Part shown: positions 22,043 to 57,108 of the stretch, piece by piece | Numbering within the stretch: the stretch's first letter is position 1 | Layout: every line of letters starts with the position of its first letter | DNA from: Treponema sp. | Lineage (GTDB): Bacteria > Spirochaetota > Spirochaetia > Treponematales > Treponemataceae | Direction of reading: 5' to 3' | Assembly (NCBI GenBank): GCA_016287815.1 | Contig: JAEEWW010000005.1 | Coordinates: forward strand, 1-64,000 | Length of the DNA: 64,000 bases | The notes under the pieces: generated by a model | What the model saw: the letters and a program-made list of their open reading frames with translations, nothing else | What the model was told of the DNA's origin: nothing | Database searches by the model: none | Translations under genes and position numbers: made by a program

Positions 22043-23044
22043 TTATTTTTTCCGGCGGGAATCTTTATTTTTCCTTCGTTTAGACTTTGTATTTGTCTGA
22101 ATTACATTGGAACTTTTTGTAAAGATTATGTTCGCAATTATTGTTGAAATAATGCACCCAAGAACTACAAAGACCATCCCGAGTTTGCCGGAATTCTGTA
22201 AAGGCAGTTCAATATTCATGCCAAAGAAACTTACAATAAATGTTGGAATCATAATTACAATGTTGATTATTGTAAGTTTTTTCATAACGATGTTAAGGTT
22301 GTTTGAAATTACAGAGGCAAAGGCATCCATCATGCCGGAAAGAATGTTGCTGTAAGTATCGGTCATGCCGATTGCCTGCCGGTTATCTACTTCTACGTCG
22401 TCAAGCCATTCCTGGTCTTCTTCGTCAAAGCGCAAAAGTCTTGTTTTTCTGAATTTTTCAAGTAAGAGCTGATTATTTGCAAGTGACGTTGTAAAGTATT
22501 CCAGGGATTTTTCAAGGTTTAAAAGCTGAATGATTTCTTTGTTTTCAATAGAAATCTGAAGTTCTTTCTGAATTGTTGCAGACCGTCTGTTAATTTCCTT
22601 TAAGTAGCGCAGAAACAAGATATTTGCACGGCTTAAAATCTGAATCATAAAGGCAGGAAAGTCTGCAAGGCGAATTCCTTTTATTCTGTTTGCTGAAAAA
22701 TCACGAAGTACTTCACAGTCTGTCCAGCAGATAGTAATTATAAAGTTTTCTTTGATTATAATTCCCAACGGAGTTGTAATATAGGCAATTTCTGAATTGG
22801 GGTCGAAAATCGGAAGACGCATAATTACCAGAATGTAGCCGTCTGCCGGTTCCATTCGCGAAAGTTCATCCGGGTCAAGAATATCAAGAAGATGTTCATT
22901 TTCTATATTAAATTCACTTTCAAGCTGAGAAACTTCAGAAGGGGTAACAGAACGGACATCAACCCAGGTTTTTAACTGCGGGTTTAAGTCTTCCTTTTTT
23001 ACACGTACTAATTTTTGATGAGTTTGCTGCCAGTATGTAATCAT
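22043..23044 (-). CDS. corA: Magnesium/cobalt transporter CorA
   Basis: 333 aa; C-terminal TM with GMNIELP (GMN motif). Confidence 0.93.
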   Translation of the reverse strand: MITYWQQTHQKLVRVKKEDLNPQLKTWVDVRSVTPSEVSQLESEFNIENEHLLDILDPDELSRMEPADGYILVIMRLPIFDPNSEIAYITTPLGIIIKENFIITICWTDCEVLRDFSANRIKGIRLADFPAFMIQILSRANILFLRYLKEINRRSATIQKELQISIENKEIIQLLNLEKSLEYFTTSLANNQLLLEKFRKTRLLRFDEEDQEWLDDVEVDNRQAIGMTDTYSNILSGMMDAFASVISNNLNIVMKKLTIINIVIMIPTFIVSFFGMNIELPLQNSGKLGMVFVVLGCIISTIIANIIFTKSSNVIQTNTKSKRRKNKDSRRKK

Positions 23045-23094
23045 TTTTATGTCCTTTTACGCAAGATTTTTTAGCGTGCAGAACAATGGCGACT

Positions 23095-23181
23095 TTATTT
23101 CCGTTTTAGTCCTGCAGAGGCTTTTATGCAGTTCACGCTGCATAAGTGATAATCTGAACTACGACTCGAGCCGCTGTCCAT
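23095..23181 (-). CDS. Candidate 28-aa leader peptide upstream of corA: MDSGSSRSSDYHLCSVNCIKASAGLKRK
   Basis: Read on minus strand: AAGGAGG (23195-23189), 7-nt T spacer, ATG (23181) ... TAA (23095). Not in the ORF track because of its length. Confidence 0.6.
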   Translation of the reverse strand: MDSGSSRSSDYHLCSVNCIKASAGLKRK

Positions 23182-23425
23182 AAAAAAACCTCCTTAATAA
23201 TGCGGGTGTCCGGAAAACGGAAAACCATGCATGAAATAGGCTTTGTTTTAATCTTTTTTCATTTTGCAGAATTAAAACTTGCCGGGTTTTAGAACCCAAA
23301 CGGTTTAACAAACTACTTAATATTTTACCGAATTTTTTTTTTCAGAGCAAGTTTTTTGCAAAAAGTTTCATATTTTTTAGATTCTCGCCAATTAATTAGT
23401 CATACAAGATAAAAGGAGGTTTTGT

Positions 23426-23764
23426 ATGAGTAAATGCTGTAAGTTTTCTTTGTCGCCGGATTTCTGCATGTTTAACGGAGCTGCAATTATCGAGCAGGAT
23501 AAAAATAAAATTCATTTCGGGCTTGTCCGCCCCGAAGATACAGAATTGCGTATGAAGCTTTTCATGGCTTTTGCAACTTTTTTACGTGATAAAAATATTG
23601 CCGCAGTTCCAGTCCTTACGTTTTCGCTTTTAACGCAAAGGCAGCTTTTGCATTATGTTTCTTCATTATGTAAAAAGATTTCTTATTCTTTTAAAGGTGA
23701 AGAATCTGATAAAAAGGACTTTCTGGTTTTGCGCAGATTTCTTGCACAGGGAGTTGCTGTATGA
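23426..23764 (+). CDS. Hypothetical protein (112 aa)
   Basis: AAAAGGAGG Shine-Dalgarno with good spacing; overlaps the next CDS by 4 nt (ATGA). Confidence 0.6.
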   Translation: MSKCCKFSLSPDFCMFNGAAIIEQDKNKIHFGLVRPEDTELRMKLFMAFATFLRDKNIAAVPVLTFSLLTQRQLLHYVSSLCKKISYSFKGEESDKKDFLVLRRFLAQGVAV

Positions 23765-24297
23765 TGAGTGAGAAGAGATCCGGAAAGAGAAAAAGATCTG
23801 ATTTTATCAGTTTTACAATAATTTATATTTTGTTCTTTTCTTCCTGCATGTTTTTTTCAGCATGTTCGTCATCTGGTACATCAAATTTTTTCAGTTCATC
23901 GCTTAAAAAGTCAGGTTGTCCGTATGAGATTGAAGACCTGGAAATAAAAAACTGCGAAGAAAGCTCTGCAAATTTTACTGATTCACTTTGCTTTGTATTT
24001 TTAAACCTTTCAAAAAAAACTGTAAAAAAACTTACGGTAACATTTTCAATTTCTTATCCTGAAAAGGAGTTTTTTTCAGAAAACAGATTTTACAGGACGG
24101 TTGAAGCTGAGGTTTTTCCTTTTGCAAGTGAAGAAATTCAAATTCAGCTTGATGAGTATCTGGAAGAATGTTCTATAAAAATAGAAGAAATAGAAAATGA
24201 ATGTACCTGTGAAACGGAGTCAGTCTTTATTTCAGGAATTTCATATACAGACGGAACATCCTGGCGTGATGTTTACGGAGCTTATGCTCACTGGTGA
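23761..24297 (+). CDS. Hypothetical lipoprotein-like protein
   Basis: N-terminal hydrophobic region ending in FFSACSSSG; translationally coupled to the upstream ORF. Confidence 0.6.
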   Translation: MMSEKRSGKRKRSDFISFTIIYILFFSSCMFFSACSSSGTSNFFSSSLKKSGCPYEIEDLEIKNCEESSANFTDSLCFVFLNLSKKTVKKLTVTFSISYPEKEFFSENRFYRTVEAEVFPFASEEIQIQLDEYLEECSIKIEEIENECTCETESVFISGISYTDGTSWRDVYGAYAHW

Positions 24298-55371: not shown

Positions 55372-55545
55372 GCGGAACTGGTTCTCTGGAGAGTCTCCGA
55401 AAAGGAGCGCCGAAGGGTTAAGTTTTATTTACGGATTTTCTAAAAATCTACGCAGATGCACACAATGTGAAAAATCTGCGATACGAGTTTTTAGGGAACT
55501 GAAAATAAAATGATATCTCAGGCACAAAGGACAGAGCATTTCTTG
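55372..55545 (+). promoter_or_regulatory. Glycine riboswitch (single aptamer apparent)
   Basis: GGTTCTCTGGAGAGTCTCCGAAAAGGAGCGCCGAAGGG ... ATCTCAGGCACAAAGGACAGAGCATT matches gcvT-type glycine aptamer conserved segments; upstream of an AGCS symporter. Confidence 0.88.
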
Positions 55546-55644: not shown

Positions 55645-57108
55645 ATGTCTTTCGATTCAATTCTCAATGCCCTTGACGACATTGTCTGGGGTTTGCCAAC
55701 AATCATTTTGATTCTGGCAACAGGTCTCATTCTGACCATTCGTTTGCGTGGAATGCAGTTTTCAAAATTAGTACGTGCATTCAAATCAATTTTCCGCAAA
55801 GGCGACGGCCAGAAAGGTGAAGTTTCAAGTTTTGGAGCACTTTGTACGGCTCTTTCTGCAACTATCGGAACAGGAAATATTGTCGGTGTTGCAACAGCCA
55901 TTGCTGCCGGTGGTCCAGGCGCACTTTTCTGGATGTGGATTGCAGCTCTTGTAGGAACTGCTACAAAGTATGCAGAATGTATGCTTGCCGTAAAATACCG
56001 CGAACACATGGCAGATGGTCATATTCTTGGCGGCCCATTCTTTACAATTGAAAAAGGTATGAAAGAACAGACAGGAATTTCCTGGAAATGGCTTGCCGTT
56101 TTATTTGCGATTTTCGGCGTATGTGTCGGACTTTTTGGAATCGGAACATTTACCCAGATTAACGGTATTGCGTCCGCTGTAAAAAATGCTTTTGACCCGG
56201 AAACAAAAAATGTTGCATTTACACTTTTTGGTACATCATATTCATGGGCAACTGTAATTGCAGGAATTTTTGTAACAGTTTTTGCAGCCCTTGTAATCAT
56301 TGGCGGCTTGCAGAGAATTTCAAAAGTTGCGCAGGTTATAGTTCCTTTTATGGCAGTTCTTTACGTTTTCCTTGGCGTAAGCGTTCTTGTAATGAATGCT
56401 ACAAAAATTCCTGAGGCCTTTGCCCTTATTTTTAAGGCAGCATTCGCACCAAAAGCTGTTACTGGCGGAATTGTAGGTTCAATGATTGTAGCAATGCAGA
56501 AAGGTATTGCCCGCGGAATTTTCAGTAACGAAGCAGGTCTTGGTTCAGCCGCTATTGCAGCTTCTACTGCTCAGGTTGAAGAACCTGTTGCACAGGGACT
56601 TGTTTCCATGACAGGAACATTCATCGACACAATCATAGTTTGTACTATGACAGGTCTTTCCATTGTAATTGCTTTTTCTAACAATGGAAGTTTTGTTCTT
56701 CCTGTAAATGCTTCAGGTGAAATTTTAAGAGGCGTTGACCTTACATCGGCTGCATTCAGCACTGTTTTAGGCGGAGACGGAATTTCCGTACAGTTCCTTC
56801 TTATGATTTGTCTTGTATTCTTTGCCTTTACTACAATTTTAGGCTGGGATTACTATTCAGAACGCTGTCTTGAATATCTTACATGTGGAAAAATGAAGCT
56901 TGTAATGATTTACAGAGTATTGTACATCGTAGCGGTTGCAATCGGACCATATATGACAATCAGTCAGGTATGGACAATTGCTGATATTACAAACGGACTT
57001 ATGGCATGGCCAAACTGTATTGCTTTGATTGTACTTTCTGGTGTTGCCGCAAAAACAACAGAAGATTTCTTTAAAAAATATCCGACCTTGCAATCTGAAG
57101 TAAGATAA
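55645..57108 (+). CDS. Alanine/glycine:cation symporter (AGCS family)
   Basis: SSFGALCTALSATIGTGNIVGVATAIAAGGPGALFWMWIAALVGTATKYAE; GIARGIFSNEAGLGSAAIA. Confidence 0.95.
   Translation: MSFDSILNALDDIVWGLPTIILILATGLILTIRLRGMQFSKLVRAFKSIFRKGDGQKGEVSSFGALCTALSATIGTGNIVGVATAIAAGGPGALFWMWIAALVGTATKYAECMLAVKYREHMADGHILGGPFFTIEKGMKEQTGISWKWLAVLFAIFGVCVGLFGIGTFTQINGIASAVKNAFDPETKNVAFTLFGTSYSWATVIAGIFVTVFAALVIIGGLQRISKVAQVIVPFMAVLYVFLGVSVLVMNATKIPEAFALIFKAAFAPKAVTGGIVGSMIVAMQKGIARGIFSNEAGLGSAAIAASTAQVEEPVAQGLVSMTGTFIDTIIVCTMTGLSIVIAFSNNGSFVLPVNASGEILRGVDLTSAAFSTVLGGDGISVQFLLMICLVFFAFTTILGWDYYSERCLEYLTCGKMKLVMIYRVLYIVAVAIGPYMTISQVWTIADITNGLMAWPNCIALIVLSGVAAKTTEDFFKKYPTLQSEVR

Follow-up and report, generated by a model that had tools for sequence, protein, structure and literature searches.

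Is the short ORF immediately upstream of corA in this DNA of a gut Treponema a translated leader that controls corA, and if so, to what signal would it respond? The window, i.e., the whole stretch of 64,000 nt analyzed here, carries corA on the minus strand. In the source genome (estimated to be 94% complete, its nearest named relatives being Treponema), neither a second CorA-family gene nor MgtE was found, and no MgtA candidate above the cut-off. Besides the Pfam match listed below, the corA product matched the NCBI corA model TIGR00383 with an E-value of 8e-32 but did not reach the cut-off of the model. The gene and its leader comprise the following features:

22043-23044, minus strand: corA, Mg2+ channel of 333 aa (Pfam CorA, E 1.6e-53)
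23195-23189, minus strand: leader Shine-Dalgarno (SD) sequence AAGGAGG, read from the sequence; RNA segment 1 together with the 7-nt spacer and ATG
23095-23181, minus strand: leader peptide ORF of 28 codons, called from the sequence and family conservation
23155-23181, minus strand: conserved leader N-terminus M-D-S-G-S-S-R-S-S, called from pN/pS; proposed ribosome-destabilising nascent chain
23124-23145, minus strand: hairpin TTATGCAG-cgtgaa-CTGCATAA in the leader, predicted by folding and stacked within stem 1:2

The ORF (23181-23095) encodes MDSGSSRSSDYHLCSVNCIKASAGLKRK, starts at the ATG at 23181, and terminates at the TAA at 23097-23095, leaving 50 nt between its stop codon and the corA ATG at 23044. 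The SD sequence, the 7-nt spacer, the start codon, the 28 codons, and the 50-nt distance to corA are exactly as a preliminary description of this DNA had them, and the internal hairpin that it reported was located at 23145-23124. The hairpin is kept, with changes, only in the two nearest relatives.

CorA orthologues were retrieved from named genomes and 146 genomes of the genus, and 142 non-redundant upstream regions were inspected with a rule that accepts an SD-preceded small ORF starting with M-[D/E]-[S/G]-G-S-S or a close variant. Leaders of this type were found in 78 of the 142 regions, whereas the rule matched 7 of 2840 shuffled regions (0.25%) and approximately 3 of approximately 338 regions lying 5' of other long ORFs (about 1%; 12 raw matches in 347 regions, 9 of which were corA itself). 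The few non-corA matches in the genus lay inside or antisense to unrelated genes. At the nucleotide level, the pattern comprising SD and MD(S/G)G gave 31 matches in the genus versus 2 for the reversed control, and they were at corA except for chance-type ones that fell within other genes or antisense to them. The leader was also found at all of the 8 close corA orthologues from two other families of the order, and was lacking at a 32%-identical paralogue. Thus, the reading frame proposed from the window is kept in relatives, both at the 78 corA regions and in the two other families. Searching by DNA similarity with the region 5' of corA as the query retrieved no more than the start of corA in four relatives; the leader was missed because its nucleotides diverge. 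Judging from this conservation, we regard the unannotated ORF as a real regulatory leader of corA, and as a member of a gene family missing from the present annotation.

The leaders range from 20 to 38 aa in length, and their N-termini fall into the types MD(S/G)GSS..., MDSDPGS, MPDPDS, and MSDSDGGGS, with the remainder of the peptide being variable. The nearest relatives possess MDSGGSRSSDYHLCSLNCIKASAGLSRN, the rumen types MDGGSSYPIRSLITNKSLLNKCL-like leaders, Treponema lecithinolyticum MDSDPGSKRI..., Breznakiella homolactica MSDTDGGGSLPCHRRRLK..., and other Spirochaetota MPDPDSCSRQDIPPF... Leaders of Clostridia, namely MDSGPEHSCYNQ..., MDEGPGLYCFN..., and MDSDPGGSRD..., are of like composition and precede some of the corA genes there. 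Eight clostridial corA loci were found to be preceded by small ORFs starting with MDEGP, MDSGP, MTADP, MNADP, or MDSDPG. These clostridial small ORFs suggest that the corA leader is distributed more widely than in spirochaetes, through either homology or convergence. In the CorA tree, the leader was scattered, which requires no fewer than 14-22 changes, the lower figure being for starred branches; as this number of changes is needed and approximately 45% of the sampled corA genes are without the leader, it is dispensable. Most of the changes are probably losses, since the leader is present in every family of the order that gave a close orthologue, and the losses are overcounted because some genes were labelled as leaderless on truncated contigs.

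We estimated pN/pS from 31 independent sister pairs. The ratio was 0.13 at codons 2-5 and 0.43 at codons 6-9, compared with 0.82 at codons 10-15 and 0.59 in the later codons. The value at codons 6-9 is the unbiased one, residues 2-5 having been favoured by the leader rule. AGY encodes Ser5 in 34 leaders and TCN in 26, and this mixture implies that, family-wide, the residue rather than a nucleotide motif is kept; only one switch between the Ser codon classes was seen between close sister pairs. Asp or Glu occurs within positions 2-5 in 78/78 leaders and at position 2 in 73/78, acidic N-termini being favoured, albeit not forced, by the search rule. After residue 8, the leaders are net basic (187 K/R versus 46 D/E). 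In the window peptide, which is Ser-rich and has two Cys and no Pro, D2 is the one acidic residue in the first nine. GGAGG was found at most 20 nt from the start in 72 of the 78 leaders and from none of the 78 corA starts: the leader SD is strong, and that of corA is weaker. Neither Pfam nor NCBIfam contained a family matching the leader peptide.

If the peptide is variable beyond its N-terminus, what does the rest of the leader keep? Four segments were defined a priori, namely the leader SD and start (segment 1), the leader from codon 9 to the stop (segment 2), the intergenic part (segment 3), and the corA SD and start (segment 4). In the window, they include the following parts:

23108-23129, minus strand: RNA segment 2, in which GCATAAAAGCCTCTG (23129-23115) pairs with the leader SD/start and GCAGGACT (23115-23108) with segment 3
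23074-23094, minus strand: RNA segment 3, in which GTTCTGC (23084-23078) pairs with segment 2
23085-23080 and 23077-23074, minus strand: TGTTCT and ACGC, the parts of segment 3 that pair with segment 4 in folds and duplex analysis
23050-23062, minus strand: RNA segment 4, GCGTAAAAGGACA, which includes the corA SD AAAAGGAC and is hidden in stem 3:4

Stem 1:2 of the window is AGGAGGTTTTTTTATG/GCATAAAAGCCTCTG, stem 2:3 includes GCAGGAC/GTTCTGC (23115-23109 with 23084-23078), and stem 3:4 consists of TGTTCT/AGGACA (23085-23080 with 23055-23050) around ACGC/GCGT (23077-23074 with 23062-23059) with the corA SD inside. Pairing was scored on the 62 leaders less than 90% alike. For 1:2, 2:3, and 3:4, the native duplex energies were better than those with cross-species partners, and 10,000 rounds of partner permutation confined to clades never attained the native mean for any of the three. 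The same within-clade permutation of the 62 leaders gave no signal for 1:3 and 1:4 and a weak one for 2:4 (217/10,000). Stems 1:2 and 2:3 draw on stretches of segment 2 that overlap above chance, and the same holds, less strongly, for the stretches of segment 3 on which 2:3 and 3:4 draw. The mean energies were -16.9 kcal/mol for 2:3 and -9.6 kcal/mol for 3:4. As in mgtQ (see below), 1:2 plus 3:4 and 2:3 are mutually exclusive, and the corA SD lies in 3:4. The further pairing options pointed out in the preliminary description are real, being parts of the two mutually exclusive stems, and its idea of alternative RNA structures coupled to the leader is supported by the covariation across the 62 leaders. 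Beyond the N-terminus, the leader keeps RNA complementarity instead of peptide sequence. The leaders of GC-rich spirochaetes have a Pro/Arg-rich end (e.g., RWPPR, RMPPSR) with CCCCC-rich coding, and GGGGGC at the corA SD; their Pro codons may double as anti-SD RNA.

We folded 58 leaders with a simulated ribosome footprint either on segment 1 or at the stop codon. With segment 1 occupied, 2:3 increased in 52/58 leaders (from 4.4 to 12.4 pairs) and 3:4 decreased in 48/58 (from 8.1 to 3.9 pairs). Some stems are excluded by the footprint as such, and what is informative is the replacement of 3:4 by 2:3 under occupation of segment 1. When the footprint was placed at the stop codon, 2:3 disappeared and 3:4 returned to 8.4 pairs, being restored in 46 of the 58. 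The mean accessibility of the corA SD shifted little (+0.05, p 0.056, for footprints clear of segment 3), and the stop footprint reaching into segment 3 brought about a slight change in the wrong direction. The small change in accessibility is a weakness of either the static model or the idea of a switch.

The closest counterpart is mgtQ, the intergenic translation-aborting ORF of Salmonella mgtQ-mgtB, of which Asp2 and Glu5 destabilise ribosomes, so that 2:3 replaces 3:4 and mgtB translation increases (PMC8092293). The two systems share an AGGAGG SD, Asp at codon 2, a position 5' of a Mg2+ transporter gene, the competition of 1:2 plus 3:4 with 2:3, a target ribosome-binding site in 3:4, and a 2:3 stabler than 3:4; the stem energies of mgtQ (-16.4 for 2:3 and -12.3 for 3:4; PMC8092293) rank in the same way as those of the spirochaete leaders. 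On the other hand, mgtQ is 8 codons long, is situated within an operon ahead of mgtB, which encodes a P-type ATPase, and is known from enterobacteria and relatives, whereas the Treponema leader belongs to a type with 20-38 codons and a Gly/Ser-rich N-terminus that spirochaetes have before corA. CorL is likewise a leader ORF before corA with a proposed Mg2+ response, and its N-terminus, (L)DTPSRY..., is comparable to MDSGSSR.../MDSGSSY... of Treponema. It differs in Rho-dependent termination (PMC11552253) and a weak TTG start, and its homology to the Treponema peptide is unproven. In E. coli K-12, CorL is annotated only as protein YsgD. MgtL is a short leader as well, in which a basic tail comes after an acidic/Pro N-terminus (MEPDP...), and MPDPDS and MDSDPGS of Spirochaetales look alike, but its target is mgtA, its read-out is Rho-based, and it has more Pro, in contrast to the window peptide with none. 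Both E. coli MgtL (MEPDPTPLP...) and CorL/YsgD ((L)DTPSRYWLTILSSRINS) have an acidic residue at position 2. The present locus has in common with MgtL, CorL, and MgtQ an SD-led short ORF that precedes the gene for a Mg2+ transporter and is kept in relatives, and acidic residues and/or Pro near the N-terminus, of which the window peptide has D2 only. The leader probably works like mgtQ, and it may be akin to CorL.

We propose, with a probability of about 0.62, that the ORF is the translated leader of a translational attenuator controlling corA, on which ribosomes drop off at low Mg2+. In ample Mg2+, ribosomes would read the leader to its stop and cover segment 2 or let 1:2 re-form, and stem 3:4 would hide the corA SD, keeping CorA synthesis low. 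At low Mg2+, the acidic, Gly/Ser/Pro-rich N-terminal nascent chain would destabilise the ribosome and cause early drop-off; ribosomes would then keep loading on segment 1 only, and 2:3 would form and release the corA SD. Both the signal and the direction of corA regulation are taken from the analogy with known leaders. Ribosome destabilisation of such kind in E. coli is suppressed by high Mg2+, according to work cited in PMC9718836. With one acidic residue in its first nine and no Pro, the window peptide falls short of the acidic stretches by which the phenomenon has been defined in that bacterium. Five genomes have a leader ORF that reaches across the corA start, the frame being the same in every measured case; the four leaders with starts 61-73 nt 5' of corA all use one frame and end 26-50 nt past its start. 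Such an overlap leaves no room for the four-segment switch. In this minority of genomes, where the leader is read across the corA start in a frame other than that of corA, a ribosome that drops off early would uncover this start directly, possibly as a simpler variant with the same sign of control. We further propose, at slightly worse than even odds, that this class of corA leader, which resembles enterobacterial CorL, is widespread and common to Spirochaetota and some Clostridia and that its short acidic, Gly/Ser-rich N-terminus, rather than an acidic/Pro run, is the Mg2+ sensor. If so, Mg2+ sensing by the translating ribosome would be the usual control of corA well outside the enterobacteria, among lineages that have no M-box.

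The same attenuator may answer to another signal, namely charging of Ser, Cys, or Gly tRNA, Co2+/Ni2+, polyamines, or general ribosome impairment, to which the covariation of the segments is blind. The preliminary description suspected a different signal from the lack of Pro; this holds for the window peptide, the Ser-richness and two Cys of which fit such a reading, but relatives do have Pro (MDGGSSYP, MDSDPGS, MPDPDS), and an acidic residue within positions 2-5 is universal. Furthermore, corA is the only target in the genus, Mg2+ is indicated by the acidic residue at position 2 and by the likeness to MgtL, CorL, and MgtQ, the spread of Ser codons over AGY and TCN implies that no single tRNA is read, and Cys is not conserved across the leaders. 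Altogether, we consider another signal unlikely, if the most serious competitor of Mg2+.

Control by transcription attenuation, in which access of Rho and the coupling of RNA polymerase to Rho would matter more than 3:4, is rather improbable. E. coli and Salmonella corL and mgtL do act through Rho, and corA expression varies inversely with the translation of corL (PMC11552253), but in the leaders studied here the covarying stem 3:4 holds the corA SD itself, pointing to translational control as in mgtQ, and no intrinsic terminator was found in the region. A scan of the region for sigma-70-type promoters found nothing. We give very little credence to the ORF encoding a functional micropeptide, e.g., one binding CorA: the N-terminus is under purifying selection, as this would demand, but conservation is poor after approximately residue 9 (pN/pS 0.6-0.8), lengths vary, no Pfam or NCBIfam family matches, and the 3' half is constrained as RNA instead. 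SD-led short ORFs do arise by chance, and a weak resemblance to M-box RNA (RF00380), an aptamer that shares 5' leader control of a Mg2+ transporter but needs no peptide, had been noted, yet both readings are ruled out, chance by the family-wide conservation set against the shuffled regions and other genes, and the M-box or another Rfam element by a search of the region with no family at the gathering threshold and none convincing at a relaxed E-value, and by the absence of RF00380 from the 146 genus genomes, in which positive controls worked.

Translated-leader control of CorA is already documented in E. coli and Salmonella, and in our survey of the open-licence literature, no corA leader was described for either spirochaetes or Firmicutes. 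If the proposed attenuator is true, the ribosome itself would report the Mg2+ status in this phylum, in a genus in which no M-box was found, acting on the only CorA found in the genome. The many natural leaders, which differ at the N-terminus and carry matched RNA switches, could serve to test which nascent-chain residues destabilise ribosomes at low Mg2+. Elsewhere in the window, divergent ORFs of 112 and 178 aa adjoin corA on the plus strand (23426-24297), neither with a Pfam match, the second being lipoprotein-like. A glycine riboswitch (RF00504, 41.8 bits; 55376-55544, plus strand) lies directly 5' of a gene for a 487-aa membrane protein resembling sodium:alanine/glycine symporters (55645-57108), an ordinary arrangement.
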